NCBI RefSeq assembly: GCF_000186865.1
Contig: NW_008705581.1
Location: forward strand, 522,660 to 568,270
DNA: 45,611 bases
Origin: Aureococcus anophagefferens
Taxonomy: Eukaryota > Sar > Pelagophyceae > Pelagomonadales > Pelagomonadaceae
Direction of reading: 5' to 3'
The notes beneath the pieces were generated by a model, which was not told the DNA's origin, searched no databases, and was given only the letters and a program-made list of their open reading frames with translations. Each line of letters begins with the position of its first letter. Within the stretch, counting starts at the first letter, position 1. Shown here piece after piece: positions 1 through 39,003 of this stretch. The position numbers and the translations under genes are program-made.

Positions 1-173
1 GGCCTGACCAAACTTCAGAATTCTCTAGCTCGGTCGAATCGAAGTCGATTTGGCTGATTTTTGGACGAATCGATTGCTCTCGTCGAGTTCTCGAAGCCCA
101 GCCGAAGAGCTTGCGTCGAAACTTTCGCATACGCGCACATTGAAGTCGGGTTGAAGATTTGGTTTCCACACAG
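1..173 (-). mobile_element. Introner family B, partial copy at the window edge (acts as an intron)
   Basis: This is a family B element in reverse orientation relative to the copy at 2257-2459; roughly the first 30 bases lie outside the window. It ends with the terminal inverted repeat GGTTTCCACACAG at 173, and the shared introner core GGCTGATTTTTGGACGA is at 52-68. Its terminal AG is the inferred 3' splice site. The next eight bases, GTCCTGGA (174-181), are the presumed downstream target duplication, so the unseen upstream copy would supply a GT donor. The downstream exon opens in frame (phase 0). Confidence 0.9.
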
Positions 174-968
174 GTCCTGGAGCTCCCGAAGGACGGCGGC
201 CTCGCGGATCTGGCGTCGGCGACGGCGGCGGACTTCCGCGCGCTCCTCGCGAAACCATCCTTCGGGGGCCTCTCCGTGACCATCCCCCACAAGCAGCTCG
301 TCCAGCCCTTCCTCGACGAGCTCACGGACGCCGCCGAGGCCATCGGCGCGGTGAACACCGTGACGCCCCGCGCGAGGACGGCGGCGATCGACGCCGTGTC
401 GCTCGGCGGCTCGCGGCCCGTGCTCGTCGGCGACAACACGGACTGGATCGGCATCTGCGCGACGCTCGAGGACGCGCTCGCGCGCCGCGGCGCGCGCGCG
501 GCCACGGGCAAAGCGCTCGTCGTCGGCTCGGGCGGCACCGCGCGCGCGGCGTGCTACGCGCTCACGAAGGGCTTCGCGCGGCGGACGGGCGCGGGCTTCG
601 ACCTCCTCGTCTACGCGCGCGACGTCGCCAAGGCCGAGGCCCTCGCGGCCGCGTTCGGCGGCGAGGCCGTCGCGCGGCTCGACGGCGTCGCCGTCGACGC
701 GGTCGTCTCGACCGTGCCCGGCGACGTGGGCTTCGTCGCGCCCGACGGCCTCCTCGACAACGAGCCCGCCGTGCTCGACGTCGCCTACAAGCCCGCGATG
801 ACGGCGCTCCTGGACCAGGCCCTCTCGCGCGGCTGCCCGGTGTCGCAGGGCGCGTCCATGCTCGTCAAGCAGGGCGTCGCCCAGTTCGAGCAGTGGACGC
901 GGCGCGTCGCGCCCGAGCCCGCCATGCGCGCCGCCGTCTTCGAGGGCGTCGACGAGCTCGAGGCCTGA
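174..968 (+). CDS. Shikimate dehydrogenase domain, C-terminal exon (probably AROM or DHQ-SDH fusion)
   Basis: This exon starts right after the introner acceptor at 173 and runs to a TGA at 966-968. It encodes about 264 residues of a shikimate 5-dehydrogenase, which reduces 3-dehydroshikimate to shikimate with NADPH. The substrate and catalytic motif SVTIPHK (catalytic Lys), GAVNT and the GDNTDW motif (catalytic Asp) appear in the usual order, followed by a Rossmann glycine loop VVGSGGTARAA. The C-terminus reads QGASMLVKQGVAQFE, which is typical of the family. The DNTDWIGI form resembles the C-terminal module of multifunctional AROM proteins or plant-type DHQ-SDH fusions. Which one cannot be decided, because the 5' part is outside the window. 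Confidence 0.88.
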   Translation, partial: VLELPKDGGLADLASATAADFRALLAKPSFGGLSVTIPHKQLVQPFLDELTDAAEAIGAVNTVTPRARTAAIDAVSLGGSRPVLVGDNTDWIGICATLEDALARRGARAATGKALVVGSGGTARAACYALTKGFARRTGAGFDLLVYARDVAKAEALAAAFGGEAVARLDGVAVDAVVSTVPGDVGFVAPDGLLDNEPAVLDVAYKPAMTALLDQALSRGCPVSQGASMLVKQGVAQFEQWTRRVAPEPAMRAAVFEGVDELEA

Positions 969-1105
969 CGCGCGTAAGACTTCAAGGTTGGCCGAGTCAT
1001 CGACTCGCGAATATGTTGAAGGGTAATTATGAGGGATATCCGAATACTCCGAGCAGGCAGCCCTCGCGAGGGCGGCCGTGCTGTTAAAGATGGCACCCTG
1101 ACACC
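969..1105. other. Short intergenic spacer with a small hairpin
   Basis: The 137-base spacer separates two co-directional genes. A perfect 6-bp inverted repeat with a 3-base loop, CGAGTC-ATC-GACTCG, lies at 993-1007. It could form a weak hairpin in the 3' UTR of the shikimate dehydrogenase gene. The segment around 1008-1040 is noticeably AT-richer than its surroundings and may hold the promoter of the next gene. No conserved RNA or mobile element was recognised. Confidence 0.4.
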
Positions 1106-2653
1106 ATGGGCAACGCGGCCCTCTCCCCGGCCCCGGCCGAGGCGGCGACGGCGGCCTGGCGCGCGCCGCCGGCCAAGGACAAGGGCCCGCGGCGGCCGCC
1201 GCGCGCCCCGCGGCCCTCGGAGCCCAAGGCCGTCCGCGAGGCCATCCCCCTGCCCGCGGACGTGCTCCCGCACCTCTTCTCCTACAGCTGCGCGCGGGAG
1301 GTCGGGACCTTCCGCTTCCTCGTCTCCCGCGGCGCGAGCGCGCAGCTCATAGCGACGGCGGAGCTCGCGCCGACGCTCGCGGACGCGGAGCGCCGCGGCT
1401 ACTGCGAGTCGCCCGCGTTCCTGCCGCGCGACGCGGACCGGGGCCGCGGCGGGCGCCGGCGGAGCGCGACGCGCCCGCCGGCGGCGCGGCCCGGCTACCG
1501 CTACCGGCCCGCGGGCCCGCTCGGCGCCGGCTGGTACTCGGGTTCTTCTCACGCCGAGACCCCGGCGCTCCGCGACGCGCTCCGCTGGCGCCGCGGCGGC
1601 GACGGCGAGCCGGAGATCGACGTGCGCATCTGCGCACACCCGGCGTCCGACGGCCGCGATGCCCTCGTCGTCGTCCAGTGCTACCTGCCCAAGCCGCCCA
1701 AGCCCGAGACGGTCCGCCTCGCCGACGGCCGCTTCGTCGAACATCAGGAGACGCCCTGGCACCGCTTCCGGCCGCCAAACTTCGAGCCGGGCATGCCCGA
1801 GGGCGCCACCCGGGGCAGGACAAGAGAGCGAAATTCCCAACTTCAAAGCCTCATATCTCGGCCGTTTTCCACTCGTTTCGGCTGATTTTTGGACGAGCGA
1901 TCATCCCTCGGAACGGTCTCGAAGCGTGGATGTTTTTCTCGTGACGCGCGCGCGCGGAACACTCACGTTGAAGCGACGTTGAATCACCCTTGTCCTGCCC
2001 AGGCGCCACCGTGCGCTTCTACGGCGCCGCGTCCTTCGAGGAGGCCCGGGACTACGCGACGCCCGGCGACGACGGTGCCGCGCGCTGGGCGCTCGGCCGC
2101 GTCGCGTTCCACTCCTACGGCTTCGTGCGCGACGCCTGGCCGCCGGAGCGGAGCCCGACGTCCTTTCTGACGAACGCCGACGTGGGCCAGAGCCTCTACC
2201 TCCCCGTGCGCCGCGTCTCCGCGCCGCGGCGCGCGGACCGCCAGTGGCGCGACGACCTGTGTGGAAACCAAATCTTCAACCCGACTTCAATTTGCGCGTA
2301 TGCGACCGTTTCGACGCAAGCTCTTCAGCTGGGCTTCGAGAACTCGACGAGAGCGATCGATCCGTCCAAGAATCAGCCGAATCGACTTCGATGTGACCGA
2401 GCTAGAGAATTCTCAAGTTTGGTCAGGACCACCCAAACCAGTGGTTGGTTTCCACACAGGCGACGACGCCGAGTCCAGGTACGCGACCGACGACTTCCAG
2501 CACCTCTGCGTGCGCGAGCTCGACGGCGCCCTCCGGAGCCACGGGCCCTTCGCCCACGCCAACGACGCGCGCGCGCCCTGGCGCGTCGGCGACGGCGTCG
2601 CCGCGCGCGTGGCGGCGCACGGCGGCCTCTTCGGCTTCGGCCCGCGGCGATGA
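1106..2653 (+). CDS. Hypothetical protein with two introner introns
   Basis: The exons are 1106-1802, 2003-2248 and 2460-2653, and together they encode 378 residues. I do not recognise the family. The N-terminus is Ala/Pro-rich and basic (about residues 1-45), then comes a possible F-box-like stretch (DVLPHLFSYSCAREVGTFRFLV). The rest is globular, with no obvious membrane segment. Removing both introners (GC-AG, phase 1 each) gives an uninterrupted frame from the ATG at 1106 to the TGA at 2651-2653, and none of the three single-exon readings does so alone. The exon between the introners is 246 bases. The high-GC codon use matches the neighbours, so the gene is probably real and expressed, but its function is unknown. 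Confidence 0.75.
1811..2002 (+). mobile_element. Introner family A, copy A1 (intron 1803-2002)
   Basis: This 192-bp element has 12-bp inner inverted repeats GGGCAGGACAAG / CTTGTCCTGCCC. It is flanked by the 8-bp duplication GCGCCACC at 1803-1810 and 2003-2010. The intron runs from the first duplication base (GC donor, host-derived) to the element's terminal CAG. Excision joins codons at phase 1 and restores GGC-GCC-ACC. The interior is in the sense class relative to the gene. The 5' end is CGGGGC instead of the CAGGGC seen in the other A copies. Confidence 0.95.
2257..2459 (+). mobile_element. Introner family B, copy B2 (intron 2249-2459)
   Basis: This 203-bp element has inverted repeats CTGTGTGGAAACC / GGTTTCCACACAG and is flanked by the 8-bp duplication GCGACGAC at 2249-2256 and 2460-2467. 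The intron is 211 nt, GC-AG, phase 1, and splicing restores the Arg-Asp-Asp codons of the host gene. The family B inverted repeats are symmetrical (CTG...CAG), so either orientation offers a terminal AG. Confidence 0.95.
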
Positions 2654-2710
2654 CGGCTAACATTGGAGTGGAACACGGAGCGGCGGGTTAGAAAAAGCGA
2701 ACGGCGGGGC

Positions 2711-3238
2711 CTAGTGCCCGCTCTTCTTGGACTTCTTGCCGGACTTGGTCCGCTTGTCGTCGTCGCCGATGTAGGAGTCGATCCACGCGAGGACCGCGTC
2801 GTCGTCGCCGATGAGCGACGAGTCGATGTCCTGGCAGCAGAAGCAGTCGTCGCCGCTGCCGCAGCCGCTCGAGTTCTTCGTGCCGCCGTACTCGTTGCAG
2901 CTCTTCTTCTCGTACATACAGACGCCGCCGTAGTCCTCCCAGCACGTGCTCGTCTCGTCGGCCGTCTCGTCCGTGCAGATGGCGACCTCGGCGGCGCCGA
3001 TGGTCGACATGCCGCCGTCGGTGCCCTTGGCCTTGGCGGCCAGCGCGCCGCCGAGCGTCGTCGGGGCGACCTTCGCGAACAGGGCCGTCGCGCCCGCCGC
3101 GCCGCCGTTGAGGCCCGCGAAGGCGAAGGCGGCGACGAGGAGCCCCGCGGCGGCGACGGCGCCCGTGCGCTTCGCGAAGCGCTTCGCCTGGGTCGCCTCC
3201 GGCGCCTGCCCCTCGACGTCCGGCACCTCCGAGTACAT
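2711..3238 (-). CDS. Small Cys-rich single-pass membrane protein, unknown function
   Basis: The 175-residue protein has a short cytosolic N-terminus and one hydrophobic Ala/Gly-rich segment at about residues 27-50. A predicted lumenal or extracellular domain follows with about ten cysteines between residues 90 and 140 (CTDE, CWEDYGGVCMYEKKSC, CGSGDDCFCCQD). The tail is lysine-rich (KSGKKSKKSGH). The sequence IGDDD occurs twice near the C-terminus, suggesting a short internal repeat. The cysteine pattern fits a small disulfide-rich secreted fold, but I do not recognise the family. The start ATG at 3238 faces the gene at 3447 across a shared 208-base upstream region. Confidence 0.7.
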   Translation of the reverse strand: MYSEVPDVEGQAPEATQAKRFAKRTGAVAAAGLLVAAFAFAGLNGGAAGATALFAKVAPTTLGGALAAKAKGTDGGMSTIGAAEVAICTDETADETSTCWEDYGGVCMYEKKSCNEYGGTKNSSGCGSGDDCFCCQDIDSSLIGDDDAVLAWIDSYIGDDDKRTKSGKKSKKSGH

Positions 3239-3446
3239 CGCGGCGACGACGACGACGGGGGAGGCGGGGCTGCTAAGACTGTCGTCTCTGAAAGCTGCCC
3301 GCTGACAAGATCCGTGCAGCGGTCGCGGCTAGGCTTGGAGTCCCAGTGCCGCGAGGCCTGGTGCCGCAAACCCCCCGGGTAGGCCCTCTAGCTGTTAACC
3401 TCTCCTAGCCTAGCAGCAACGTTGCAGGTTTACGAAAGGCTCGACG
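3239..3446. promoter_or_regulatory. Divergent promoter region with GTTGCAGG motif
   Basis: This 208-base region separates two divergent start codons and must hold both promoters. On the plus strand GTTGCAGG sits at 3421-3428, 18 bases before the ATG at 3447. The same motif recurs just upstream of several other start codons in this window. No TATA box is obvious. Confidence 0.45.
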
Positions 3447-3956: not shown

Positions 3957-5727
3957 ACGGTCGTGAGCACGGGCACGGGCCCCGCGTCGAGGGAGGGCCG
4001 GCCCTCGGACCCGTCGTCCGACGGCGGCGGCGACGTCGCCAGCGAGAAGTCCGCGTCCTGGAGGTGCACGTAGCCCGACGGCGGCTCCGCGGAGTCGCGC
4101 CGCGGCCGCTTCGGGAAGCAGAGCGCGCCGATGGCGTTGAGGAGGCCGCAGCACGTGAGCACGAGGACGACGAGCGCGAGCTGCCAGAGCAGCTTCAGCC
4201 CCACGTGGTCCGCGTCGACGGAGTCGTAGACGCGGATGAGCGTGTCCTCGTAGGGCGTCCAGAACGCGAAGGCCACGGTCCAGGCCTCGTAGACCTCGTC
4301 GAAGACGGCGTCGTTCGCGCGCCGGAGGTCCTCGGACGTCCGCGCGCGGCGCGTCCGCCGCCGCTTCCGCTCGCGGTTCGCGAGCGCGGCCGCCTGCGTG
4401 GAAATCAAATCTTCAACCCTACTTCAATCTGTGTGTATGCGACAGTTTCGACGCAAGCTCTTTGGCTGTGCTTCGAGAACTCGACGAGAGCAATCGATTC
4501 GTCCAAAAATCAGCCAAATCGACTTCGATTTGACCGAGCTAGAGAGGTTCGAAGTTTTTGCTGGACAGCGTTCCACTGGTTGATTTCCACACAGGCGGCC
4601 GCGGCGACGGCGACGGCGTAGATCCAGAACGCCAGGATCTCCCGGTCCGCGTCCAAGTCCAGCTGCGCCGTGATGAAGAAGTCGACGGCGTCGAAGACGC
4701 CCAGGCACGCGACGACGGCGGCCGTCTTCCGAGCGAGCGCGGGCACGGCGCTCTCCGCGTCCTGGTCCTGGGGCAGCCGCCGCGCCACGGCCCGCGCGCC
4801 GAGAAAAAAGGCGCCGGCCTTGAAGAGCGCGGCGGCGAAGCGCGCGGCCGTGACGGTCCCCAGCGCGGGCGACGCGTCGAAGGGCAAGAAGAGCAGCGAC
4901 GTCAGCACGGTCGAGATGGCCAGCGCGGACACGTAGTGGAGCGAGCCGCGCAGCAGCGCCCAGACCCGCGCCGCGTTCGGGCCCTTGGCCGTCTCCGCGC
5001 GCCGCGTCGCCGTCGCCATCGTCGCGTAGGCGCCGACGAGGACCGACGCGCAGAGCAGAAACCGCACGCAGAAGAGGCGGAAGAGCAGCCCCGTGGGGGG
5101 CGCGTCGTCATTTTCGTCGAGCCGCCGCCCGTGGGCGCCGCCGGGGGGCCGCCGGCGCCGCGGGTGCGCGCCCGTCGGCGGCTGGAAGCTCGCGGCGCCG
5201 CCGCGTTTCCGCGCGCGCGGCGCGGACGGGCCCGTGACGTCCGGCGTCGCCCACTGGCTCGACACCTCCCACTCGACCTCCGCGAGCACGTAGGTGAAGG
5301 TCGTCGACACGCTCACGGAGTAGGCCGACGACGCCGCGCCCGCCGCGAGCGCCGTCAGCGCTTTCGCCGTCTCCGCGCGGAACGACACGCGCCGCTGGGG
5401 CAGGCGCGCGAGCGCCCAGGCGCTCCACCGCTCGAGGGCGGCGGCGGCGCAGGGGATGTAGGCGACGCCCAGGCAGGCGTTGATCCCGAACGCGCCGATC
5501 ATCGACCAGCACTTCCCGCGCATGTCGCCGGGGCACACGGAGTCGGGATCCAGGTCGTCCTGGAGGATGTAGGCCAGCGCGACGGCGCAGAACGTGCCGT
5601 AGACGCAGTTCGCGATCTCCGCGCAGTCGAGGACCACGAAGTCGCTGTTCAAGCGCCGGAAGGGGCGGTGGAGCGCCTCGATGATGCGCGGCGGCGCGAG
5701 CGTGGGCTCGGAGCTCGGGATCTCCAT
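3953..5727 (-). CDS. Polytopic membrane protein with one introner, unknown family
   Basis: The exons on the minus strand are 5727-4603 and 4393-3953, and splicing yields 521 residues. The first in-frame ATG is at 5727; the frame stays open upstream but without an ATG. I count about eight hydrophobic segments, for example around VVLDCAEIANCVYGTFCAVA, FLLCASVLVGAYATM, SALAISTVLTSLLFLPF, AALFKAGAFFLGARAVA, AVVACLGVFDAVDFF, FWIYAVAVAAA, and a last one LLWQLALVVLVLTCCGLL in exon 2. Between the early and middle segments is a basic, Pro-rich cytosolic loop. The tail after the last segment is acidic. No transporter or channel signature was recognised. The GC-AG introner is at phase 0. Confidence 0.72.
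4394..4594 (+). mobile_element. Introner family B, copy B3, antisense to the host gene (intron 4394-4602)
   Basis: The 201-bp element lies forward on the plus strand inside a minus-strand gene. Its palindromic 8-bp duplication GCGGCCGC is at 4386-4393 and 4595-4602. In gene sense the intron opens with the GC at 4602-4601 and closes with the AG at 4395-4394, phase 0. This is the most diverged B copy. Both inverted repeats carry the same change (GGAAATCA instead of GGAAACCA), so the ends still pair. Confidence 0.93.
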
Positions 5728-6054: not shown

Positions 6055-7415
6055 ATGGGGTCGTTCGGGCGGTCCAAGGACGACAGCAAGGCCCTCGAGG
6101 CCATGCGGCGCAACACGCGCCTCGGCATCGCCGCCGTCGCCGCCTTCGCCCTCGGCTACGTCGCCTACGCGACGGGCGGCCTCGCGGGCTTCGGCGGCGG
6201 CGGCGCGAACGACGACGAGTACAGCTCCCACATCGTCACGGAGCTCCGGTGCCCGCCGCCGAGCAGCCGCTTCGTCGACGTCGAGAAATTGGGCGCCGTG
6301 AGCACGAAGCGGCTCGTCCGCGCGGCCAGGGCCGCGGGCACGGGCTGCGGGGACCGGCCGCGCACCGTCGTGACCATGAGCTCCTTCTACGGGCGGCACA
6401 CGTCCCTGCCCATGGTCGTGCGGAGCATCCTCGACCAGTCGTGCACGCCGGACGCGATCTACGTCTTCCTGAGCCTCGTGCCGCTCATCGACCGCGAGTT
6501 CCGGCACAACAAGTCGCGCGCCGTCGGCGACGAGATCGGCGCCTTCGAGGACGTGCTCAAGGCGCTGAGCCCGCTCGTGAAGCTGCACATGATCACGCGC
6601 GCGGAGGACGACTTCGGGCCGGCGACGAAGTTGTTGCCCGCGCTCCGCCTCGAGCGCGACGCGCGGACGCACCTCATCACCGTCGACGACGACACGACCT
6701 ACCACGAGGACATGATCCTGGCCCTCTCGCTCACGGCGCAGCACGCGTCCAAGCCCGTGTCCGTGGGCTTCTGGTGCGAGGAGTTCGGGTGGGCGCCGCA
6801 GCAGGGCTACTTCTTCATGCACGCGCAGTACCGGCCAGGGCAGCAAAAGGGTGATTCAACGTCGCTTCAACGTGAGTGTTCCGCGCGCGCGCGTTTCGGA
6901 AACAGCACCCGCGCTTCGAGAGCGCTCCGAGAGATGATCGCTCGTCCAAAAATTAGCCGAAACGAGCGGAAAACGATATGAGCCTCCAAAGTTGGGAATT
7001 TCGCACTCTTTTCCCGCCCAGGTACCGGCGCGAGTGCCTCCGCGTGCCCGTCGAGGGCACCTGCCACGGCTGGCTCTCGGGCGTCTCGGGCGTGCTCTTC
7101 GAGCGCGGGTCCCTCGACGACCAGATCTTCAACTACACGGACCGGCCCAAGGGCTGCTGGCTCCACGACGACGTCTGGTTCGGCGGCCACGTCGTGAGCT
7201 CCCTCGACGCCGTGCCCTACCTCATCGACCCGGGCTTCAAGTCCCGCAAGGTGCGGCGCATCGAGCACGACCGGTCCAAGTCGTCGTCCTACCTCCAGAC
7301 GCTCAAGCTCCGGGAGCACGGCGACGACCCGGAGGCCCAGTGCGCGTCCTCCTTCGACTACATGCGCGACGCCGTCCACCGGGGGCACCACAAGTCCGCC
7401 GGCGGGCACCGCTAG
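6055..7415 (+). CDS. Type II membrane glycosyltransferase-like protein with one introner
   Basis: The exons are 6055-6827 and 7022-7415, giving 388 residues. A single hydrophobic anchor at about residues 23-46 follows a short basic N-terminus, the usual type II topology of Golgi glycosyltransferases. The lumenal part has a GT-A-like start (TVVTMSSFYGR, then SILDQSCTPDAIYVFLS) and a metal-binding acidic triad VDDDT at residues 211-213. After the introner come CHGWLSGVSGVLFERGSLDDQIF and HDDVWFGGHV, which resemble an acceptor-site region with a catalytic acid. Donor and acceptor are not predictable from this. The introner is the GT-AG, phase 2 case; joining restores HAQYRRECLR. Confidence 0.75.
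6836..7021 (-). mobile_element. Introner family A, copy A2 (intron 6828-7021), GT donor
   Basis: At 186 bp this is the shortest and most diverged family A copy. The duplication GTACCGGC is at 6828-6835 and 7022-7029, so here the host supplied a GT donor. The ends are CAGGGCAGCAAAAG and CTTTTCCCGCCCAG. The interior is antisense relative to the gene. Removal of 194 nt at phase 2 restores the frame. Confidence 0.94.
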
Positions 7416-9657: not shown

Positions 9658-9670
9658 GACGAGAGGCCGG

Positions 9671-11972: not shown

Positions 11973-13608
11973 AGGAACGTGTAGGGCGACGGCCGCGCGA
12001 GCGAGCTCGGCGCCCGGACGCGCGCGAGCGACGGCTCCCGGCGCGGCTCGTCCGGGTCGAAGCTCCGGGCCTGCCCCCGCTCGAAGGCCGCCTCGCTGAT
12101 GCCGCGGCCCGGCAGCTCGCCGTGGCGGTGCATGTCCTTGGTGCCGACGGGGTAGGGCAGCCAGGACGTGAGCTTCTCCGGCAGCGGCGGCCCCGCGTAG
12201 ACGTAGTTCGGGTGGAAGACGAGCGTCGGCTTCTCGTACTCGACGACCTCCTCGGGCCTCCGGGCCACGGAGCACAGGTCGTGGTGCTTCGGGTCGAAGA
12301 CGTTCCGCGTGAGCCTGGGCAGGACAAGAGAGCGAAATTCCCAACTTCAAAGGCTCCTAGCTCGGCCGTTTTCCACTCGTTTCGGCTAATTTTTGGACGA
12401 GCGATCATCTCTCGGAGCGCTCTCGACGCGTGGATGCTTTTTCCGGAACGGGCGCGCGCGGAACACTCCCGTTGAAGCGACGTTGAATCACCCTTGTCCT
12501 GCCCTGGCGTGAGCCGGAGCCGCGCGTCCGCGCTGTTCGCGAGCGCGTTGCGCTTTTTGGGAGGCGGCGCCTTCGCGTAGCGCCGCAGGGGCCGCGAGAT
12601 GGCGGCGTTGCGCGCCTCGGCGTGGGCGCGCGCGCGCTCCGCGCGGCCCCGCGCCTCGAGGGCCAGCAGCGAGTCGAAGGGGTCCGCCGGGAGCGCGAAG
12701 ACGTTCGGCGGCCTCCGGTGCCGCGCGGCGCGCCTTCGCAGCTTGTACTCGGGCACGCCGTAGACGCGGTGGTCCAAACCGATCCGATCCCGGAGCTCGA
12801 CGTAGACGAGGTCGACGAACTCCTCAAAGTCCATGGTGCCCGAGCCGTCCTTGTCGACGCGGTCGAAGAGCTTTCTCACCTCGTCGTCGTCGAAGGCCAG
12901 CGGGTGCTTCAGATCCAGCAGCAGCTCCTGGAGCTCCTTGACGTCGATGAACCCGGACCGGTCGTCGTCGACGCGGTCGAAGATCTTGCGGAACTTGGCG
13001 AGCTCCTCGGGGAGCCAGTTGCCGTCGCTCACGAGCTCGACGTCGTAGGTTAACGTGGAAGGCCTCGTCCGGAACCAGCGCGTGGGCTTCACGGCCAAAA
13101 TCTTCGCTTTGCGCCAGATGCCCGCGTGGTGGAGCTCGACCGTGTCGCCGACCTCGGGGAAGTACTCGCGCTCGCACGTCGCGAGCTGCCGCTCGCGCGC
13201 GGCGCGCGTCGACGCGCCCGCGTGGCCGCGCGGGCTCGCGAGCCCGAAGACCCGAGGCTCGGGCTCGGCGAAGGGGCTCTCGCCGGAGTGCGTCGAGTCG
13301 AGGGACTGGTGGCTGCTGCCCTCCTCGGAATCTAAGCCGTAGATGTCCTTCTTCAGCGCGCTCCGGAGGCGCCGCGTCTCCGCCGTGTGCGTGTAGGCCA
13401 GCGCGCCGCTCTGCTGGCTCGTCTGGCTCGCCGTCTCGAACTCGGACGCGTCGCGCACCTCCCAGGACTCGCGCCGACCGTCCCGCGTCTTCGAGTCGCG
13501 CGACGCCCGCTCCGCGTTCGACTCGGCGAGCTCGCTCCGCGACTTGATGGCCGGCCCGCGCACGGCGGCGCGGTTCTCGTACTTGCGGTCCATGACGATG
13601 TGCGCCAT
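11969..13608 (-). CDS. EF-hand calcium-binding protein with one introner
   Basis: The minus-strand exons are 13608-12515 and 12314-11969, which splice to 479 residues. The N-terminal third is charged and low complexity. A tudor/SH3-like stretch (FPEVGDTVELHHAGIWRKAKIL) lies at about 150-195. Two adjacent EF-hands follow, with loops at 214-225 (D214, D216, S218, G219, E225) and 252-263 (D252, D254, S256, G257, E263), so calcium binding is likely. The C-terminal part after the introner (PNYVYAGPPLPEKLTSWLPYPVGTKD in shortened form) has no recognised domain. The introner is GC-AG at phase 2. Confidence 0.82.
12315..12506 (+). mobile_element. Introner family A, copy A3, in a minus-strand gene (intron 12315-12514)
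   Basis: The 192-bp element is flanked by GCGTGAGC at 12307-12314 and 12507-12514. In gene sense the duplication reads GCTCACGC, giving a GC donor. The element starts CAGGGCAGGACAAG and ends with CTTGTCCTGCCCAG. The interior is antisense relative to the gene. Excision of 200 nt at phase 2 restores LRLTRNVFD. Confidence 0.95.
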
Positions 13609-19350: not shown

Positions 19351-20551
19351 AGCCGGGCGCAGGCCGCCCAGAGCCGGTCCGCGGCGGCTCGTTCGTCGCG
19401 CGGGAGCCGCGCGAAGGCCGGCCGCGCGCCCGCGAAGACGCTCAGGTACTCGAAGGCGGAGCGGCCGGGCCCCCGCGGCGGCTGCCAGAAGGGCGCGAGG
19501 TACGCCGGCAGGCCGTCGTCGGTCCGCGGCAGACGCGCGGCGGGCGCGGCCGCCGCGAAGACCGACGTCGCGGAGCCCTCGTCGCTCGAGAGGAACCTGG
19601 GCAGGACAAGAGTGCGAAATTCCCAACTTCAAAGGCTCCTCTCTCGGCCATTTTCCACTCGTTTCGGCTGATTTTTGGACGAGCGATCATCTCTCGGAAC
19701 GGTCTCGAAGCATGGATGCTTTTCCCAGAACGCGCGCGCGTGGAACACTCACGTTGAAGCGACGTTGAATCACCCTTGTCCTGCCCTGAGAGGAACGCGA
19801 GCCGCGAGAAGCCCGCGAACAGCGCGCTCGCGGGGAACCAGACGTGGCGCCAGATATGGGAATCGACGGCGCCCGGGTTCACGGCGACGCCCAACAACCC
19901 GGCGCCGAAGTCGCCGCGGCTGATCGCGCGCGCGAGGAGGATCATCGCGAGCTTCGATTCCGCGTAGTCCGCGCCGAGCGTCCCGAAGGTCGCCGCGTCG
20001 GCGCTGTGGTGGCTCACGGACGACAGGCACACGACGCGCGCGCCGGGGCGGAGGTCCAGGAGCTTCAGCAGCAGCCACTGCGCGACGAAGTTGACGCCGA
20101 AGACGAGCGAGCAGCCCGGCAGGTCCGCGTGCTCAGCCGTCGGCACGTTCGCGTTCGTGCCGGCGTTTAGGACGACGACGTCGAACGCGCCGAGCCGCGC
20201 GGCGCAGGCGCGCACGGACGCGAGGGCGCAGAGGTCGAGGACCTCGCCGGTGACGCGGCCGCGGCCGCCGGCGACCGTTTGCACGGCCGCCGCGAGGCGG
20301 GCTTCGTCGCGGCCCGTGACCACGACCTCGGCGCCCATGCGCGCGAGGCGCGCCGCCGTCGCGAGGCCGATGCCGGCCGTGGCGCCCGTCACCAGGACGC
20401 GTTTGCCTCGTAGGTCCTCCTCCGGCGGCGCCGGCGCGGCGAGGAGGCCGGTGGCCTCGAGGAGCGGCTGCGCCAACGACACGACGCCGAGCACCGCGAT
20501 GATCGGCGACTGCAGCGCCGTGCGCAGGCCGTGGCCGAGCTTCGTCGCCAT
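19335..20551 (-). CDS. Short-chain dehydrogenase/reductase, membrane-anchored type, with one introner
   Basis: The minus-strand exons are 20551-19797 and 19596-19335, giving 338 residues. A hydrophobic N-terminal segment (about 14-40) suggests membrane attachment. The Rossmann motif TGATAGIG is at 55-62, NAG at 129-131, catalytic Ser at 177-178 and YAESK with Tyr196 and Lys200. This is the classical SDR active site in the layout of retinol dehydrogenase-like enzymes; the substrate is unknown. The Pro-Gly motif appears as VNPGAVDSHIW. The introner (GT-AG, phase 2) lies after SRLAFLS and splicing continues SSDEGSATSVF. Confidence 0.87.
19597..19788 (+). mobile_element. Introner family A, copy A4, in a minus-strand gene (intron 19597-19796), GT donor
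   Basis: The 192-bp element is flanked by AGAGGAAC at 19589-19596 and 19789-19796. In gene sense the duplication is GTTCCTCT, so the donor is GT. The element ends are CAGGGCAGGACAAG and CTTGTCCTGCCCAG in gene sense, and the interior is antisense. Phase 2. Confidence 0.95.
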
Positions 20552-20741: not shown

Positions 20742-22771
20742 ATGGCCGACGCGTCGACGCCGCTCATGCCGCCAGGCGAGGGCGTCGCCGCCGCCGTGTC
20801 GGCGAGCGTCGGCGCCGCGGCGCAGCGCAAGCCCTGGTACCTGCAGCCCATCTTCCTCTGCTGCGCCTGCTGCGGCGTCGTCGCCGTCGTCGCCGGCGTC
20901 GTCGTCTTCCTCATGCTCTTCTCGGAGGGCAGCGACGACGACTGGACGAACCCGCTCGACGACAACATGTCGAACTATGTTTCGCCGCTGCAGAACGACA
21001 CGTCGGCCTTCGACGGGTGCGTCGAGAGCGACGGCCAGTTCACGTGCCAGTGGGGGCCCCGCGCGCTGCAGGGCAGGACAAGGGTGATTCAACGTCGCTT
21101 CAACGTGAGTGTTCCGCGCGCGCGCGTTCCGGAAAAAGCATCCACGCTTCGAGACCGTTCCGAGAGATGATCGCTCGTCCAAAAATCAGCCGAAACGAGT
21201 GGAAAATGGCCGAGAGAGGAGCCTTTGAAGTTGGGAATTTCGCACTCTTGTCCTGCCCAGGCGCGCTGCTCGAGTTCGAGAAGGTGCGCCAGTTCGTCCT
21301 CAACGACACGAACACGAGCGACGTGGCCATGGATCTGCTCATCCCCCAGAAGCTCGCGCTCCGCTACTCGCCGCGGCTCATGGCCGCGGAGATCGGCGGC
21401 GCGGCCGTCGGCGGCTACTTCGCCTTCACGCTCTACATGCCCGGCCCGGCGTCCCAAACCACGGGCCTCGCCCCGTCCTACAGCTCCTACATGATCGTCA
21501 TGCACTGGAACGGCACGCTGCGGTCCGTGACGCCGACGTCGTCTTTGGACGACGGTTACGAAAGCACGCACATGGACGCGCTCAAGCTGACGGGCCCGGA
21601 CACCATCCTGACCTACACGAACAACTGGCTCGAGGAGAAGGGCTACCCCTACGAGTGGTCCTGGCGCCAGGAGACGAAGGACACGCGGGACCACCACCTC
21701 AAGCGCCTCTCGAAGAAGAAGCGGTTCAGCTCGCACGACGTCCAGTGGGGCCTCGACAACAAGTCCTACTGGCAGCCCACGGGCGGCGTCAACGAGACGG
21801 TCTTCGCCAAGTTCCACGCCAACGGCACGCAGCAGCGCCAGTGGTACGTGCCCAACTGCGGCGACATCAACCACGTGCAGCTCGTCGAGAACGAGACGCG
21901 CGCGATCATCTCGTGCCGCCTGAGCGACTCCATCGTCAACTACAACATGCTCACGGACCGCGTCGAGTGGGTCGCCGGCGGCGAGAACGGCACCTTCACC
22001 ATCACGGACGGCACGGTGACGCTCGCCGCGGGGCTCTCCTACTGGGCGGGGCAGCACAACGTCGAATACGTCGGCGACGACACCTACCTCATGTTCGACA
22101 ACGCCTACAACTTGTACTCGCCGTCGCGCATCCTCTCCGTGGTCATCAACGAAACCACGCAGGTCGCCTTCGTCGACTTCTCCTACTCGCCGCTCAACGC
22201 GTACCCCCAGGGCTACAGCGAGACGTTCGGCGACAACGACCGCCTCCCGTCCAAGAACCACCTGACGTGCTGGTGGCCGGGGCTCCTCGACCCGGACTTG
22301 GACGTCATGTTCGACGCGCAGATCCAGGAGGTGACGCCGGCCCAGGAGGTGGCCTGGGAGCTGTCGATCTACGGCGGCTCCGACTGCTCGGACACGGCGT
22401 CCTACAGCTGCATCCGGTCCATCAACCAGGGCTGGAAGATCTACAGCGTCGAGCGCTTTTATGATTCGCCCGTGGTCTACAACGCGACGTTCTTCAACGG
22501 GACGCTCGAGTTCCTCGCGCACTCGTCCTTCAAGCTGAGCCACCGGACGACGGGCCGTTGGGATCTGCTCTACGAGGACCGGATCGTCGCCGCGGGCGAG
22601 GTCGTCTTCGACGCCTACTGGAAGCCGTCGACGGTGCTCGCGGAGACGACCTGGGGCCGCAACGACAGCGCGGTGCGCTACCGGAACGTGGGCCTCGTCG
22701 TGACGGACGTCTGGGAGCGAACAACGCACGTCGACGTCGAGTTCACGCCGCCCCACGGGTATTTCACGTAA
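20742..22771 (+). CDS. Arylsulfotransferase-like type II membrane glycoprotein with one introner
   Basis: The exons are 20742-21060 and 21261-22771, giving 609 residues. After about 30 cytosolic residues comes one strong anchor (FLCCACCGVVAVVAGVVVF). The large lumenal domain has the blade-like repeats and His motifs of the arylsulfotransferase family, namely SSHDVQWG, GDINHVQLVEN and AGQHNVEYVGDDTYLMFDN. In bacterial members such His residues carry the sulfate transfer; whether this protein is active is unknown. About ten N-glycosylation sequons (NDT, NTS, NGT, NKS, NET, NAT, NDS) fit a secretory-pathway protein. The introner is GC-AG, phase 1; splicing gives WGPRALLEFEKV. Confidence 0.78.
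21069..21260 (-). mobile_element. Introner family A, copy A5 (intron 21061-21260)
   Basis: The 192-bp element is flanked by GCGCGCTG at 21061-21068 and 21261-21268. GC donor, AG acceptor, phase 1, 200-nt intron. The terminal repeats CAGGGCAGGACAAG / CTTGTCCTGCCCAG match except at the second base. The interior is antisense relative to the gene. Confidence 0.96.
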
Positions 22772-22781: not shown

Positions 22782-24766
22782 CTAGGCGCCCCGGGGCTGG
22801 CGGAGGAAGATGCAGCCCTGGGCCTGGGAGACGGCCTCGTAGATGGAGAGGCCCGCGAGGTCCGCGCCGAACATGGCCTCGCAGCGCAGGGTCCGGATGT
22901 GGGCGACGTGCTTCGGCGCGCCCTTGCGCTTGCCGCCCTGGGCGTTCTTGGCCGCCTTGGCCGCGATCTTCGGGTTCGCCGCGTCGAGCAGCACGTCGAG
23001 CGGCTTGTCGCGCCAGGCCTCGGGGATCTTGAGGCGCAGGGAGCAGCGGCGCGACGCGTCGACGTGGTCGTGGAAGTGGAGCATGCAGGAGGGCCACTCC
23101 GCGGACACGGCGTCCTTGAGGCGCGCGAACTTGCGCCGGTCGACGTTGAGCACGGCGTCGTCCGCCGCGAGCGTCGCCGCCGCGGCGGCGTGCGCCGCGC
23201 GCGCGGCGCAGGTCAGCGCGCCGTCGCCGGCGGCCCCGAAGCCGTGCTCGAAGGCGGCGCGGATGCGCCGCGCGAGGTCGACCTTGTCAGCCTTCTTGCG
23301 CGCCTTGGCCTCCGTCTTCGCCAAACGGTCCGCCTCGACGGCCTTCTCGGCGACGCGCGCGGCCTCCTCGGCGTCGCGCTTCTTCGCCGACTTCTCCGCG
23401 GCCTCCTCGCGCGCGCGCTTCTCCCGCTCCAGCACCTTGGCCTTGAGGCGCTCCGCGCGCCGCACGTTCTCCTCCTCCGCGGCGCGCGTCGCCTCCGCGG
23501 ACGTCGGCGCCTGGGCAGGACAAGAGAGATTCAACGTCGCTTCAACGTGAGTGTTCCGCGCGCGCGCGTTCCGGAAAAAGCATCCATGCTTCGAGACCGT
23601 TCCGAGAGATGATCGCTCGTCCAAAAGTCAGCCGAAACGAGTGGAAAACGGCCGAGATCGGAGCCTTTGAAGTTGGGAATGTCGCTCTCTTTTCCTGCCC
23701 TGGTCGGCGCCAGGTCCGCCGCGGAAGGCGCCGCGGCCTCGTCCTTCGCGGCGGCCGGCGCTCGTTTCCCCGCGGCCAGGCCCCCGAGCGCGTCGTCGCC
23801 GTCGTCGTCGCCGTCGTCGCCGCCGACGAGTGCGGGCACGCCCAGCAGCACGCCGCAGCGGCCGAGCTCGTCGCGGATATCCGCGGTCGCGTCCGCCTTG
23901 AGCCCGAGGTGCGCCAACGCCTTCTCCGCGACCTCGGACGGCGCGAATCCATCATCCAAACCGAGGTGCGCGGAGATCTCCGCCGCGAGCTCGTCGGCGC
24001 CTTTGCCCGCGAGCCGCGCGAAGGCCTCGTGGCGCCCGAGCTGCACCACGTACGCGTCGCTCCGGCCCGGCGTCGCCTCTTGACAGACCCAGGACTCGTC
24101 GTCGCCGAAACCTAAGAGCAGCTTCGCGAGCTTGCCCACGGCCGCGGTGACGCCCTCGCCGCTCGCGCAGCACGTCGCCGCGAAGTCGGAGCCGGACCGC
24201 TTCCTCGCGGCGTCCCAGACGTCGCCGTCCTTCACCCGCAACTTCGGCGCGTCCGTCTTGTTCCCGAGAAACAGCGCCGGCGGCTTGCCGCCCGCGAGGC
24301 GGTCGAACTCGTGGAAGCGGATGGACAGGTTCTTGAAGCTGTCCGGGTGCGCGTAGGAAAACACGAAGACGCCGCCGTCTTTCGCTCTCGCGAGGTGCGG
24401 CGCCAGGTCCACCTGCTTGACCTGGTACATCTGGTCCCAGGCCCAGTCGACGAGCGTGATGAGCGCGGGCGGGCCCGTCGGGCCCCGGACCGTGACCTCG
24501 ACCTCGCGGGGCCCGGCGTCGTCCATCGTGGGATGGTAGTCCTCGTCGAAGCGTTCGCCGGCCGCGGCGCGGCAGAAGGCCGTCTTGCCGACCTCGGCGT
24601 CGCCGAGGACGGCGACGCGGAAGGCCCGGGGCCGGGCCACGCCCGCGTCGCCGAGGAGCTTCCCCCGCTCGCGCGCCGCCTTGTCGAGCTCGCGGGCGCG
24701 GACGCGCGCCTTGGCGAGCTGCGCCATGTCGTCGCCATCGACCTTGGTCCCCAGGGGGTTGACCAT
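22782..24766 (-). CDS. Ras-like GTPase domain fused to a coiled coil, with one introner
   Basis: The minus-strand exons are 24766-23711 and 23510-22782, joining to 594 residues. After about 50 residues there is a P-loop GDAEVGKTAFC (G1), then a switch region with HPTMDD. The G3 position reads LVDWAWDQM, lacking the usual DxxG. NKTD is a good G4 and CASGEG a possible G5. So nucleotide binding is likely, while the hydrolysis mechanism may differ from Ras. A linker with a Gly/Asp tract follows, and exon 2 encodes a highly charged coiled coil (EEENVRRAERLKAKVLEREK) and a C-terminal globular region. I do not recognise the fusion. Introner: GC-AG, phase 0. Confidence 0.75.
23511..23702 (-). mobile_element. 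Introner family A, copy A6, sense in a minus-strand gene (intron 23511-23710)
   Basis: The 192-bp element is flanked by GTCGGCGC at 23503-23510 and 23703-23710. In gene sense the duplication is GCGCCGAC, a GC donor. The 5' end in gene sense is CAGGGCAGGAAAAG and the 3' end CTTGTCCTGCCCAG. The interior is in the sense class. Phase 0; splicing restores the Ala-Pro-Thr codons. Confidence 0.95.
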
Positions 24767-32743: not shown

Positions 32744-32764
32744 GAACGTCTCCGCGGATTACCC

Positions 32765-33833: not shown

Positions 33834-35731
33834 ATGCTGCCACCCATCCTCTCCGCGTCGAAGCTCGATGAGCTCGAAATCATGGGCCGCGGCAAGCAAA
33901 ACCCCGCGCCGCCGTCCCTGCAGACGACCACGAAGAGCCTCTGCGGCTCCCTGCGGCGCGCGGCGGCGCGGCGCGGGGGCGAAGCGGTCGCCGTCGCCGC
34001 CGTCGTCGCCGCGATCGCCGCCACGCACGACGTCGGCGCCTGCGCGACGTGGGCCGCGGCGATGGCGCCGCCCGCGGTCGCCGCGGCGGTCGCGTACCAG
34101 TACTTTTTGCGGTTCCGCGTCTACGGCGCGTGGCCGAGCGCGCCGTTCCCGACGACGTTGCCGCTGCTCGGCAACGCCGTCGTCGCCGCGCCGGCCTTCA
34201 TGCGGTTTCTGTTGCGGGAGGCGAAGAAGCGCGACGGCCTGTTCCTCTTCTGGCCGGGCGGCGTGCGGCCCATGTGCGTCGTCGCGACTCCCGCGGCGGC
34301 CAAGGCCGTGCTCGGGTCGTCGCGGGCCTTCCCCAAGGGCGAGGACTACCGCGACAAGTTCGGGTTGGTGTTCGGCGACGGCCTCGTGACGAGCATGGGC
34401 GAGAAGCACGCGCGCGCGCGCCGCGTTTTGGGAAAGTACTTCGCGAAGCCGCGCTTGGAGGCCCACGCGCCGTCCATCGCCGCCATCTTCGACTCGACGG
34501 CCGACGAGCTCTGGGACGCGCGCCTCGCCGACGGGCCCTGCGACATCGACGTGCAGGAGTTCTTCCACATCGCGACGCTGCGCGCGTTCTGTTCTGCGAT
34601 GATCGGCGAGGACATTTTGACCTGGAAGCTCGAGGGCTACGAGGCGCGGGGCGCCGTGGCCAAGTACGTGGCCACGGAGGTGAGCTTCGGGTCCAACGTC
34701 GTGGGCGAGCACATGCTCTACAACATCCCGATGTCGCGGGCGTTCCCGCGCGTGCGGCGCCTCGCGGCGTCGTGCGCGGCCGTGCGGCGCCAGGTCTTCA
34801 TGCCCTTGATCGAGCGGCGGCGGGCCATGGTGCGGGCGGGCGCGGCGCCCGACGACTGCCTCACGGCGCTCGTCGCGAGCGACGGCGACGAGGCGTTCTC
34901 GGACGACGATTTGCTAGATCAGTTGGTCACCCTGGTCGGCGCGGGCCACGACACGTCGGCCTACTTTTGCTGCTACGGCGCGTTGATGCTCGCGAAGCAC
35001 CCGGACGTGCAGGCGCGGCTCCGCGCGGAGCTCTCGGAGGGAAAGAGCGACTGGTCGGACTCTCTCCTGAAACGCGTCGTCATGGAGGTGCTCCGGTTGT
35101 ACCCCGTGATCCCCATGGTCACGCGCCAGTGCGCGAAGGCGACGGACCTGGTCGACGACCACGGCGCGAAGAAGCGCGTGCCCCAGGGGTCGCGCGTGCT
35201 CGTGCCCTTCTTTTTGATGAACCGGCTCCCGCGGCTCTGGGGCGACGACGCCGCGGCCTTCGACCCGGACCGCTGGCTGCCCCACCAGCGGGCGCACCGC
35301 TCCGACGGCGTCATGCTCGCGAGCCAGGGTTTTTTGCCGTTCGGCTACGGCGGCCGCACGCAGGGCAGCAAAAGAGAGCGAAATTCCCACCTTCAAAGGC
35401 TCCGATCTCGGCCGTTTTCCACTCGTTTCGGCTGATTTTTGGACGAGCGATCATCTCTCGGAACGGTCTCGAAGCGTGGATGCTTTTTCCAGAACGCGCG
35501 CGCGCGGAACACTCACGTTGAAGCGACGTTGAATCACCCTTTTGCTGCCCAGGCCGCACGTGCATCGGCTACGCGCTCGCGCTCCTCGAGATGCGCGTCT
35601 TCTTCGGCCGGCTCCTGGACCGCTACGTCCTCGAGGACGTCCCCGGCTTCGCGCCGACGATCAAGGCCGGCGTCTCGCTCACCGTCGAGAACCCCAAGGG
35701 CATCAAGGTCCGCTTCCGCAAGCGGGTCTAG
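33834..35731 (+). CDS. Cytochrome P450 with an introner inside the heme-binding signature
   Basis: The exons are 33834-35352 and 35553-35731, giving 565 residues. Hydrophobic N-terminal helices (about 45-90) anchor it to membrane and precede PFPTTLPLLGNAV, a Pro-rich hinge. The I-helix has AGHDTS (from 370), the K-helix EVLR (418) and the heme loop FGYGGRTCIG with the iron-ligating Cys510. It is a microsomal-type monooxygenase of unknown substrate; the general form resembles CYP4/CYP97-like clans, a weak guess. The introner splits the heme loop after the first base of a Gly codon and must be removed for any functional enzyme. GC-AG, phase 1. Confidence 0.92.
35361..35552 (+). mobile_element. 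Introner family A, copy A7 (intron 35353-35552), variant terminal repeats
   Basis: The 192-bp element is flanked by GCCGCACG at 35353-35360 and 35553-35560. GC donor, AG acceptor, phase 1. The inner repeats are GGGCAGCAAAAG / CTTTTGCTGCCC, differing from other copies by matched changes on both sides. The interior is in the sense class. Confidence 0.96.
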
Positions 35732-35879: not shown

Positions 35880-36938
35880 TCAGTACGTCTTCTTCGGGTC
35901 GATTTTCTCGCCGGTCTTGGGGTCGAAGCCGTAGACGGCGAGCTTGGCCTTGTGCATGATGTTGGGCCCCCGGAAGACGCCGAGCTTGAGCATGGGCCAG
36001 ATGCCCAAAAAGTAGGGCAGGTCGATGCCCGGGCGCCAGTGCGCGCGCGGGTGGATGTGGTGCCACGCGTGGTAGGCCTCGCCGAAGACGTTCGACAGGG
36101 GGTCCAGGGGGATGTCGCGGGCGTGGCACTCGCCGTTGGCCTCGTGGGCGCCGCCGTCCTCGGGCGTGTGGAAGGCGACGTTGAAGTACATCGTCGCGAG
36201 CTGGCAGACCATGCCGCTGAGCATGGAGATGTAGATCGCGTAGGGCGCGCCGCCGAGCTTGTAGCAGATCGCGTGCGTCACGAAGACGGGCACCATGTGG
36301 AAGGTCTCGCCGTAGACCAGTTCCGGGAACTTCATGTGGTCCCCGACGTACTCCTCGTCGATGCCGCGGCCGAAGGGGCCCTCCGCGCCCGGTAAATAAG
36401 TCCAGCCGACCCAGGCGTAGAGCGGGTTGAAGCAGACGGGCGTGTGGGGGTCCTCCTCCGTGTCGCACTTGGCGTGGTGCCGCCGGTGCTTCGACGCCCA
36501 CCAGAGCGGCGGGCCCTGGGAAGCCATGCAGCCCAGCCACCAGAGCACGAACTGCGCGGCCCGGCCGCACTGGAAGCCCTTGTGGGAGAAGTAGCGGTGC
36601 AGGCTCAAAGACATGCCGAAGCACTCGCGGAAGAGGTAGAGCGCGAACATGGGCTTGAGCATCCACGTCCGGAACTCGGCGCGGTACGCGTAGGCGAGGT
36701 ACGCGAAGATGGGCAGCTCCAGCAGGTAGAGCGGGCTCAGCTGGACGCCCGGCAGGTCCTCGAAGAGGAGGTTCAGGCGCTTGTCCAGGGGGTAGGGCTT
36801 GTGGGCGGCGTTGAAGCGCGGCATGGGCAGGTCCCAGCGGCCCCGCTTCGCCGCCGGCGCCGCGGCCTGCGTCTCCGGGGCGCCGTCGGAGTCGTCATCG
36901 GCCACGACGGCCGACTTGGGGTCCGGGGGCAGGCACAT
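35880..36938 (-). CDS. Delta-9-type acyl desaturase
   Basis: The 352-residue membrane di-iron desaturase has all three His boxes: HRYFSH (114-119), HRRHH (151-155) and HAWHH (290-294). Hydrophobic pairs lie between them. Spacing and sequence (SLHRYFSHKGF, WWASKHRRHH, EAYHAWHHIHPR) fit stearoyl/acyl-lipid delta-9 desaturases, which introduce the first double bond in saturated fatty acids. There is no fused cytochrome b5 domain. ATG 36938 is the first in frame; the open frame to 36992 begins without ATG. The protein lacks an obvious plastid leader, so an ER location is likelier. Confidence 0.9.
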   Translation of the reverse strand: MCLPPDPKSAVVADDDSDGAPETQAAAPAAKRGRWDLPMPRFNAAHKPYPLDKRLNLLFEDLPGVQLSPLYLLELPIFAYLAYAYRAEFRTWMLKPMFALYLFRECFGMSLSLHRYFSHKGFQCGRAAQFVLWWLGCMASQGPPLWWASKHRRHHAKCDTEEDPHTPVCFNPLYAWVGWTYLPGAEGPFGRGIDEEYVGDHMKFPELVYGETFHMVPVFVTHAICYKLGGAPYAIYISMLSGMVCQLATMYFNVAFHTPEDGGAHEANGECHARDIPLDPLSNVFGEAYHAWHHIHPRAHWRPGIDLPYFLGIWPMLKLGVFRGPNIMHKAKLAVYGFDPKTGEKIDPKKTY

Positions 36939-37139
36939 GCCTGCGACTGCGCACGGGGTCGGCTCGGGGCTGTGCGGATTCGTGCGCGCCACTGAAAAGC
37001 TGCCCAGCGTTTTTCTACCACCGTGGCGCCGCGTCGATTATCGACGAGCGCTCGGCGGATCGGAGCCAGCTCGTGGTCGACCTTGCCGTTGGGGCAGCAT
37101 GGGAAGCATGGGAACTCCGTAGCGCGCGAGTGCTTACTC

Positions 37140-39003
37140 ATGCACCCCTGGTCGGGCGGCCCCAATGGCCGAGCCGCGAGCGGCATGATCACGCCGTCGC
37201 GGCGCCTCGAATTGGCCCAGGAGCGGCTGCTCCTGAAGCGCCAGCCCGAGCTCTGCGTCGTCGGCAAGGGCGCCGTCGTCCGCGCGGGCGTGGAGCTCGA
37301 CAGCGAGGTCCTGGTCACGCTGCCGCGGGGCGACGTCGTCGTCGTCGCCGAGGAGCGCTACCTCGGGTCGAAGCAGCGGGCGCGCATCGTGAAGCCCGTG
37401 TGCGGCTGGGTGAGCCGCCGCTGCGTCGGCGTCAACGAGGAGATCGAGCACGAGGACGACGTGCAGGTCTGCGTCGCCTTCGACGGCGCCTACGCGCCGC
37501 TGCTGGAGCTGTGGCTGGAGCACTTTGAGCCCATCGCCCTCGCGCGGCCGGCGACGATGCTCCACGTGCTGTGCCTCGACGAGGCCGCGGAGGACGCGCT
37601 CCGGGGCATCCGGCTCCGCTTTTCGCGGCTGCGCGTCGGCGCGTACCGCGCGGACCTCCCGAACGACGCGTTGCTCAACGAGCAGGCCATCGGCAGGCAG
37701 ATGCGCCGGCTCGCCCACATCTGGCGCGCGCGCCTCGACTTCGTGACGGCCGTCGCGCTCGCCTGTGCCGAAACCAAATCTTCAACCCGACTTCAATGTG
37801 AGCATATTCGAATGTTTTGACACAAGCTCTTCGGCCGTGCTTCGAGAACTCGACGAGAGCGATCGATCCGTCCAAAAATCAGCCGAATCGACTTCGATTT
37901 GACCGAGCTAGAGAATTCTCAAGTTTGGTCGGGACCACCCAAACCAGTGGTTGGTTTCCACACAGGCGCTCGCGGCGCCCGTGGGCGCTCCGGTCATCCA
38001 CAGCGACGTCGACGCGTTCTGGATTTCGGACCCCATCCCCGACCTCCAGCGCCGGCGGAAGCGCAAGCTCAAGGCCGGCGTCCAGCTCGCGACGGAGCGG
38101 CCCGTCGCGGCCTTCTCCCGCGACTTCGGCGCGTGGTTCCAGGGCGCCAAGTCGTTCGGCCTCTGCCCCGGATTCTATTGTATTTGGCGCACGGACAAGG
38201 GCGTGGACCTCCTCCGCGAGTGGCGCGACAAGCTCGGCCCGGAGACCATCGTGTCCGACGACCAGAAGGCCATCAACGACGTCTACGACGCGGACACGAT
38301 CCGCGCGCACCGGGACTTCATCGTCCTCCCCTACGACAAGTACGCGCGGTGCAAGCGGGGCCACCCGACCAGAGGCGTGCCCTGCGTCTGGCACCCCTAC
38401 ATGGAGCGCACGTTCCCGCCGACGCCAGTCGCCGACAAGGTCGCGGTCATGGGCTCGATCTCGCGCCAGCTCCGGTCGGGCGACACGTCGACGCTCGACG
38501 CGTTCCACGGGCTACTGGAGGCGGGCGACGACAAGGCGTCGGCGGCGCGCCTCGAGCGGGAGAAGCTCACGGGCCGGCGGCCCTTCCTGACGGCGGATTT
38601 CTTGTTCAACGGGGCGTCGGGCGCGCCGGAGTTCGGGCTGCGATCTTCCGTGCCTTTGAAGAAGCAGCCCAAGCCGAAGGGCGCCCGGCTCAGCCACCTC
38701 GACTCCATGCTCTTCGAGAAGTCCATGGGCGCGCGCATGCAGGCGCGCCTCTTCCAGAAGGTGAACCGCATCCGCGACGAGAAGCAGAAGATCGCCGACG
38801 AGGCGCGGCGCGCGGCCGAGGCCGAGGAGGCCGCCGCGGCGGAGGCGCGGCGCCAGGAGGAGGAGGCCAGCGCCATCAACGCCTGGGGCAGCGGCGACGA
38901 CGACCAGTCCTACGACGAGCTCAAGCACCTCAACGAGCGGTCCGCGCTCTCGCTCAAAGGCCGCGCGACGTCCACGGACCACCTGGCCCGCCTTTACGGG
39001 TGA
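37140..39003 (+). CDS. GT77/DUF271-like nucleotide-diphospho-sugar transferase with one introner
   Basis: The exons are 37140 (or 37185)-37754 and 37966-39003, giving 550 or 535 residues. The N-terminal region (about 20-90) is a compact unknown domain with GKGAVVRAG and GWVSRR, like an SH3-type fold. The transferase part has the pattern of the Nucleotid_trans family: VCVAFDGAYAPLLELWLEHF, then IWRARLDFVTAV, and after the introner GAPVIHSDVDAFWISDP with the metal-binding DVD. CIWRTDKGVDLLREW and SDDQKAIND follow. The C-terminus is a coiled coil (EARRAAEAEEAAAAEARRQE). No signal peptide or anchor is clear. Introner: GC-AG, phase 0. Confidence 0.78.
37763..37965 (+). mobile_element. Introner family B, copy B4 (intron 37755-37965)
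   Basis: The 203-bp element is flanked by GCGCTCGC at 37755-37762 and 37966-37973. GC donor, AG acceptor, phase 0, 211-nt intron. The left end CTGTGCCGAAACC has two changes against the right end GGTTTCCACACAG. The interior is very close to copy B2 and in the same, sense, orientation. Confidence 0.95.

Follow-up and report, generated by a model that had tools for sequence, protein, structure and literature searches.

Short DNA transposons that probably act as exactly excised introns in a 45.6-kb stretch of Aureococcus anophagefferens DNA

Eleven short elements, seven of one family (A) and four of another (B), lie in genes of a 45.6-kb stretch of DNA from the pelagophyte alga Aureococcus anophagefferens (contig NW_008705581.1, positions 522,660 to 568,270; this whole stretch of 45,611 nucleotides is referred to as the window). 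We interpret these elements as introners, that is, as non-autonomous DNA transposons that make an 8-bp target duplication and would be removed by the spliceosome with a donor site supplied by the host gene, a reading to which we assign a probability of about 0.92. Among 51 copies sampled from the window and from elsewhere in the genome, the duplication read in gene sense begins with GT or GC in 50, compared to a background of 19.5% (P about 1e-34), and AG stands at the end of the element in all 51. One splice site is thus contributed by the element and the other is co-opted from duplicated gene sequence. Introners are the clearest case of bulk intron creation, and the statistics drawn here from sequence alone strongly support the co-option of splice sites in a long-known host species.

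The mechanism that we propose begins with a short non-autonomous transposon, presumably mobilised in trans by a transposase, that would insert into a gene and duplicate an 8-bp target. The donor would then be the opening dinucleotide of the target duplication, which reads GT or GC in the sense of the gene, whereas the acceptor would come from the last bases of the element, CAG, and splicing, which we infer from the sequence, would remove an intron composed of one duplication copy plus the element, leaving the messenger RNA (mRNA) unchanged. Insertions without GT or GC, or in the wrong orientation, would be lost through selection.

The elements of the window and their reading frames

The positions of the putative introns, with strand as that of the interrupted gene, are as follows.

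1..173, + strand: B0, a partial family B copy whose acceptor CACACAG ends at 173; the exon seemingly restarts at GTCCTGGA
1803..2002, + strand: A1 intron; duplication GCGCCACC at 1803-1810, 192-bp element at 1811-2002, second duplication copy at 2003-2010
2249..2459, + strand: B1 intron, in the gene shared with A1; duplication GCGACGAC at 2249-2256, 203-bp element, second copy at 2460-2467
4394..4602, - strand: B2 intron; 201-bp element at 4394-4594, duplication GCGGCCGC at 4595-4602, other copy at 4386-4393
6828..7021, + strand: A2 intron; duplication GTACCGGC, 186-bp element at 6836-7021, second copy at 7022-7029; the gene is without a Pfam match
12315..12514, - strand: A3 intron, in an EF-hand gene; 192-bp element, duplication GCTCACGC (gene sense), other copy at 12307-12314
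19597..19796, - strand: A4 intron, in a short-chain dehydrogenase gene; duplication GTTCCTCT (gene sense), other copy at 19589-19596; the same copy as L001:1508
21061..21260, + strand: A5 intron, in an arylsulfotransferase-like gene (Pfam match below cut-off); duplication GCGCGCTG, 192-bp element, second copy at 21261-21268; the same copy as L001:2980
23511..23710, - strand: A6 intron, in a Ras-like gene; duplication GCGCCGAC (gene sense), other copy at 23503-23510
35353..35552, + strand: A7 intron, in a cytochrome P450 gene; duplication GCCGCACG, 192-bp element, second copy at 35553-35560
37755..37965, + strand: B3 intron, in a Nucleotid_trans gene and inside that domain; duplication GCGCTCGC, 203-bp element, second copy at 37966-37973

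The family A copies measure 192 bp (n = 6) or 186 bp (n = 1) and the complete family B copies 203 bp (n = 2) or 201 bp (n = 1), the fourth being cut by the window start. Because the 1,000 bases before window base 1 (L031:1-1000) are N, the duplication of B0 is uncheckable and the copy cannot be completed. All ten complete elements are flanked by an exact 8-bp target duplication, and terminal inverted repeats are present in these ten, with 11-14 of 14 positions matching when the first 14 bases are compared to the reverse complement of the last 14. As A1 and B1 share a single spliced frame of 384 residues, the ten complete elements occupy nine genes and the cut-off B copy makes ten, so that a preliminary description of this DNA, which had counted eleven introners (seven A, four B) in ten genes with an 8-bp duplication and inverted repeats around each of the ten complete copies, holds with A1 and B1 in one gene.

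Duplication plus element amounts to 200, 194, 211 or 209 bp, never a multiple of three, and removal still yields long open frames. Eight of the nine spliced proteins were scanned, the B2 product being left out, and six showed a Pfam match at E up to 0.001 (EF-hand, SDR, arylsulfotransferase below the curated cut-off, Ras, P450 and Nucleotid_trans) while two showed none.

Donor and acceptor sites and the precision of excision

The sample comprised twenty 10-kb tiles, most of them known to hold a family A motif, together with eight loci and the window; its 59 places gave 45 family A and 10 family B copies once duplicates were removed. Element boundaries were set by requiring C.G ends with the middle base free, and gene direction was called from the codon usage of the flanks, independently of the duplication and of the element ends. 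Four of the 55 copies were dropped (window B0, one copy at a tile edge, a family A copy starting with AAG whose duplication is GCTCGGGC, and the family B copy L004:151, which has a 9-bp repeat), leaving 51 copies (43 A, 8 B). The last of those dropped, at L004:151-353, has an apparent target repeat of 9 bp instead of 8 bp that starts with GT. Because the codon model was trained on nine window genes, window copies are not independent of it; copies elsewhere are.

Duplications of the 51 copies were exact in 44, matched at seven of eight bases in five and at six of eight in two. Their gene-sense starts were GT in 25, GC in 25 and CG in one, the sole exception (L013:4026) lying at a site with little coding signal. 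On the opposite strand, the same duplications start with GT or GC in only 13 of 51 copies (P 0.38). GT is over-used as donor, since the ratio of 25 GT to 25 GC compares with 1:3.3 in the flanks (P 3.6e-5). When the upstream and downstream frames were judged separately, exact excision proved to leave the codon frame unbroken in 48 of 50 copies, with one of the 51 skipped for too short a flank; the two misses, L013:4026 and L019:3989, are both places with little coding signal. The earlier statement that removal of one duplication plus the element restores the frame is therefore borne out by the long open frames of the window and by these 48 of 50 copies.

Duplications and inverted ends are typical of any miniature transposon of this kind, and the evidence for splicing is confined to sequence; the elements might be miniature transposons of the ordinary sort that are not spliced at all and so disrupt their genes, which would be pseudogenes or freshly damaged. 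We regard this as very improbable, as transposition alone does not explain the polar GT/GC rule or the orientation-locked AG, and the coding frame runs across the site in the 48 of 50 copies just described.

Two junctions find a match in near-identical proteins that lack an interruption. The A7 element is inserted inside the P450 heme motif FGYGGRTCIG, at the codon for the G that immediately precedes R, and this motif is whole in P0003, a protein 98% identical over 565 aa; P0006, P0010, P0011 (from Chrysophaeum taylorii) and P0012 are also contiguous at the junction. At B3, no extra residues are found in P0040 (98% identical) or P0042 (56%). Together with the GT/GC and AG counts, the A7 and B3 proteins support the proposal, already made in the preliminary description, that the transposons would act as exactly excised introns.

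These comparisons also bear on an alternative that we consider improbable, though less so than the preceding one, in which both splice sites would be carried by the element, with the donor at its positions 5-6 (GT in family B, GC in family A), 12 bases (eight from the duplication and four from the element) retained in the mRNA and four residues added to the protein. Exactly four such residues occur at B1 in P0002, an annotated A. anophagefferens protein with 95% identity to the A1/B1 protein over 36% of the query, and the same outcome is reported for an Aureococcus sp. introner in PMC9860276 (Fig. 2F). The resulting frame equals that of exact excision, so for family B frame alone cannot separate the two. 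On the other hand, retention of 12 bases does not explain why the duplication opens with GT or GC in all but one of 51 copies, and the near-identical proteins at A7 and B3 lack the four residues; those of P0002 may be an artefact of a gene caller choosing GT over GC.

Besides the four residues (12 bases) that P0002 retains at B1, several points weigh against exact excision of transposons with host-supplied donors. The A1 junction is unconfirmed: the match to P0001 ends a few residues before it and P0002 differs just upstream. P0005, an A. anophagefferens P450 (88% over 69% relative to the A7 protein in the search, 96% in the junction alignment), ends before the A7 junction. P0003 and P0040 may derive from complementary DNA (cDNA) or from insert-free alleles, although either origin, cDNA or an insert-free genomic copy, favours exactness. 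Orientation rests on the codon model, and the sampled copies were mostly reached via family A motifs. Lastly, no transposase was found, and searches with end patterns lacking the short-element interior turned up no longer element that shares these ends. The first of these searches gave 0 matches (reversed control 1), another gave one coding-like match that we took as chance (control 2), and a third gave one match, a mutated family B copy (reversed control 0). Because exact ends were needed and the patterns pass about 42% (A) or 25% (B) of unrelated continuations, as reckoned for even base use, a single partner could be missed. Profiles PF05699, PF18758 and PF14372, the first and last of which stand for hAT transposases, gave no match, and their controls were likewise silent.

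Two further proteins differ from the window genes in other ways. P0001, 99% identical to the product of the A1/B1 gene, continues with an unrelated tail after its match ends, perhaps owing to another intron boundary or a broken contig. P0041, encoded on a public contig and 96% identical to the product of the B3 gene (window about 37,700-39,000), has a differing stretch, MWSPTYS, just before WFQGAK. The start of P0041 resembles the end of an intron lacking here, possibly reflecting intron presence or absence among close relatives or a gene-caller effect.

A polar end rule in family A

In gene sense, the 5' end of family A reads CAG in 34 copies and CGG in nine, and the 3' end reads CAG in 43 of 43. 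In this orientation, position 2 of the 5' arm is accordingly A or G (43/43) and that of the 3' arm is A, so that the two form a Watson-Crick pair in none of the 43 copies, while arm positions 5, 6, 10, 13, 14 and 16, which are free of any rule, are paired in all 43. Since position 2 never pairs, the acceptor AG is always on the 3' side of the gene, whatever the direction of the interior, which runs with the gene in 24 copies and against it in 19. The arms also vary at positions 9 and 11 (GACAAG and CAAAAG types), with pairing in 33 of 43 copies at position 9 and 38 of 43 at position 11, so that a change in one arm is usually accompanied by a change in the other at position 11 and less regularly at position 9. 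The family A acceptor probably arose by a position-2 change at one inverted end only; with one changed end, each copy could splice on a single strand only, and all copies observed have that orientation.

The two interior directions bear on RNA-mediated spread through reverse splicing, a route suggested for introner-like elements in fungi. The location of the elements in genes and their intron-like behaviour would suit such a route, but the 8-bp duplications and inverted ends speak against it, and interiors running both ways (24 with the gene, 19 against, n = 43) are not expected from intron RNA; we consider it the least probable of all the explanations weighed here. Under the transposon reading, the opposite directions could stem from an inversion between the arms or from two source lineages. 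A tree of 44 family A interiors has five direction changes (5-7 in the bootstrap; the starred branches force two), but a single clade, as two clean direction subfamilies would give, is not rejected by the approximately unbiased test (p-AU 0.425).

Among copies with at least seven of eight duplication bases, 25 interiors run with the gene (one of them the copy with the AAG start) and 18 against it, and copies with G at position 2 are all of the former kind (9/25 versus 0/18, P 0.006). The tree places eight changes to account for the nine G copies, which means that position 2 varies often; T never occurs among the 43. Some CCG ends were present among the 3'-end matches listed; in copies whose interior runs against the gene, they would correspond to this G at position 2. 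Joining ends genome-wide, from 100 of 348 5' places and 51 of the 100 3' places listed (of 179) on the same contigs, gave 35 copies, of which 19 were CTG..CTG, 14 CAG..CAG, one CTG..CGG and one CGG..CAG; CTG..CAG and CAG..CTG were absent from these 35 joined family A copies. Direction was not called for this set, one member of which would carry C as the second base of its 5' arm in gene sense.

Family B ends, by contrast, mostly pair (CTG..CAG in seven of eight copies, CCG..CAG in one), with five interiors running with the gene and three against. Placing T in silico at position 2 of the family A 5' arm lowered the predicted mean chance of an unpaired AG from 0.63 to 0.03, with a drop in 43 of 43 copies. 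In family B, the acceptor AG is mostly paired in the predicted folding (unpaired 0.07, 8 copies), which argues that avoidance of the hairpin is no general need. The folding model thus favours the mismatch as an escape from the hairpin in family A, whereas family B argues against its generality. Tentatively, and at somewhat less than even odds, we suggest that the position-2 mismatch is obligatory in family A and its copies polar, either because the AG is kept free of a GC-rich hairpin or because one end had to retain the CAG favoured by the transposase, as in hAT elements, while the other was given up for a splice acceptor. On both readings the transposon ends would reflect a conflict between jumping and splicing. 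Such a one-base end rule might make it possible to tell selection for splicing apart from that for transposition.

The hAT consensus has CAGNG at both sides. Miniature transposons of the hAT type likewise have an 8-bp duplication, and one family A end here is CAGGG; CAGNG at both ends is not seen, however, as CTG stands at the opposite end of family A and at either end of family B.

Relatedness, abundance and known introners

The consensus sequences of the two families can be aligned along about 55 bases in their middle, with a local score of 51 compared to a shuffle maximum of 24 (n = 300), and this shared core makes the two families relatives with different ends. Their internal relatedness, like the fact that half of the donors are GC, is absent from the preliminary description. 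The core contains the motif GATTTTTGGA, which we take to resemble an Sm site. A core related to small nuclear RNA was set aside as unsupported, as Rfam gave nothing for the whole window (gathering score) or for the A4 stretch (E up to 10). Outside the known copies, the tiles and the window gave eight scattered matches to the core, each with 3-5 mismatches where up to five were allowed, and no sign of a third family. No exact match to a 21-mer from the family A core occurs in viral_contigs or genome_contigs, collections from which records of this or a very near genome may be excluded.

A 31-base family A pattern with one free base has 315 matches in 49.05 Mb, four of them in the window (reversed control 0), and a 27-base pattern for the start of family A, in which two bases are free, has 348 matches genome-wide (reversed-pattern control 0). 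Five tiles chosen regardless of elements held five copies in 42.1 kb of readable sequence, one of them cut by a tile edge, and the 20 tiles picked by the 31-base pattern held 14 further copies without the pattern in 200 kb. With 11 elements in its 45.6 kb, the window is two to three times as dense as the sampled tiles, and this density is a local one. Recent activity had previously been read from this density; the figure of 11 in 45.6 kb stands, but a local density is by itself no proof of recency. Certain copies have almost the same interior, consistent with that group having been active recently.

The introner phenomenon in A. anophagefferens is already known. Huff, Zilberman and Roy reportedly described in 2016 short non-autonomous DNA transposons in this alga that are excised exactly, carry one splice site and co-opt the other from the duplicated target. 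The DNA analysed here, for which introners known from Aureococcus had been invoked, comes from that same species or one very close, with the difference that half of the donors are GC. The position-2 rule is not described in the titles and abstract openings surveyed; Huff et al. 2016 lay outside this comparison, and we claim no novelty for the rule. According to PMC7789003, the introners of A. anophagefferens invariably show canonical splice motifs and direct repeats, together with terminal inverted repeats whose length is constant. Family 4 of Aureococcus sp. likewise shows, in PMC9860276, an 8-bp duplication with four element bases before the reported donor; the stretch given there is 3289-3365 (77 bp), and 12 bases are left in the mRNA, whereas A7 and B3 here point to exact excision. 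Pelagomonas calceolata, which belongs to the same algal class, has introns of similar length, about 210 bp, and the authors of PMC9481584 liken them to A. anophagefferens introners.

Two further repeats of the window were observed. Direct repeats about 222-231 bp apart lie within long open frames at 25257-26286, apparently without relation to the introners, and two 82-bp direct repeats, 84 bp apart and 94% identical, occupy 30376-30541.

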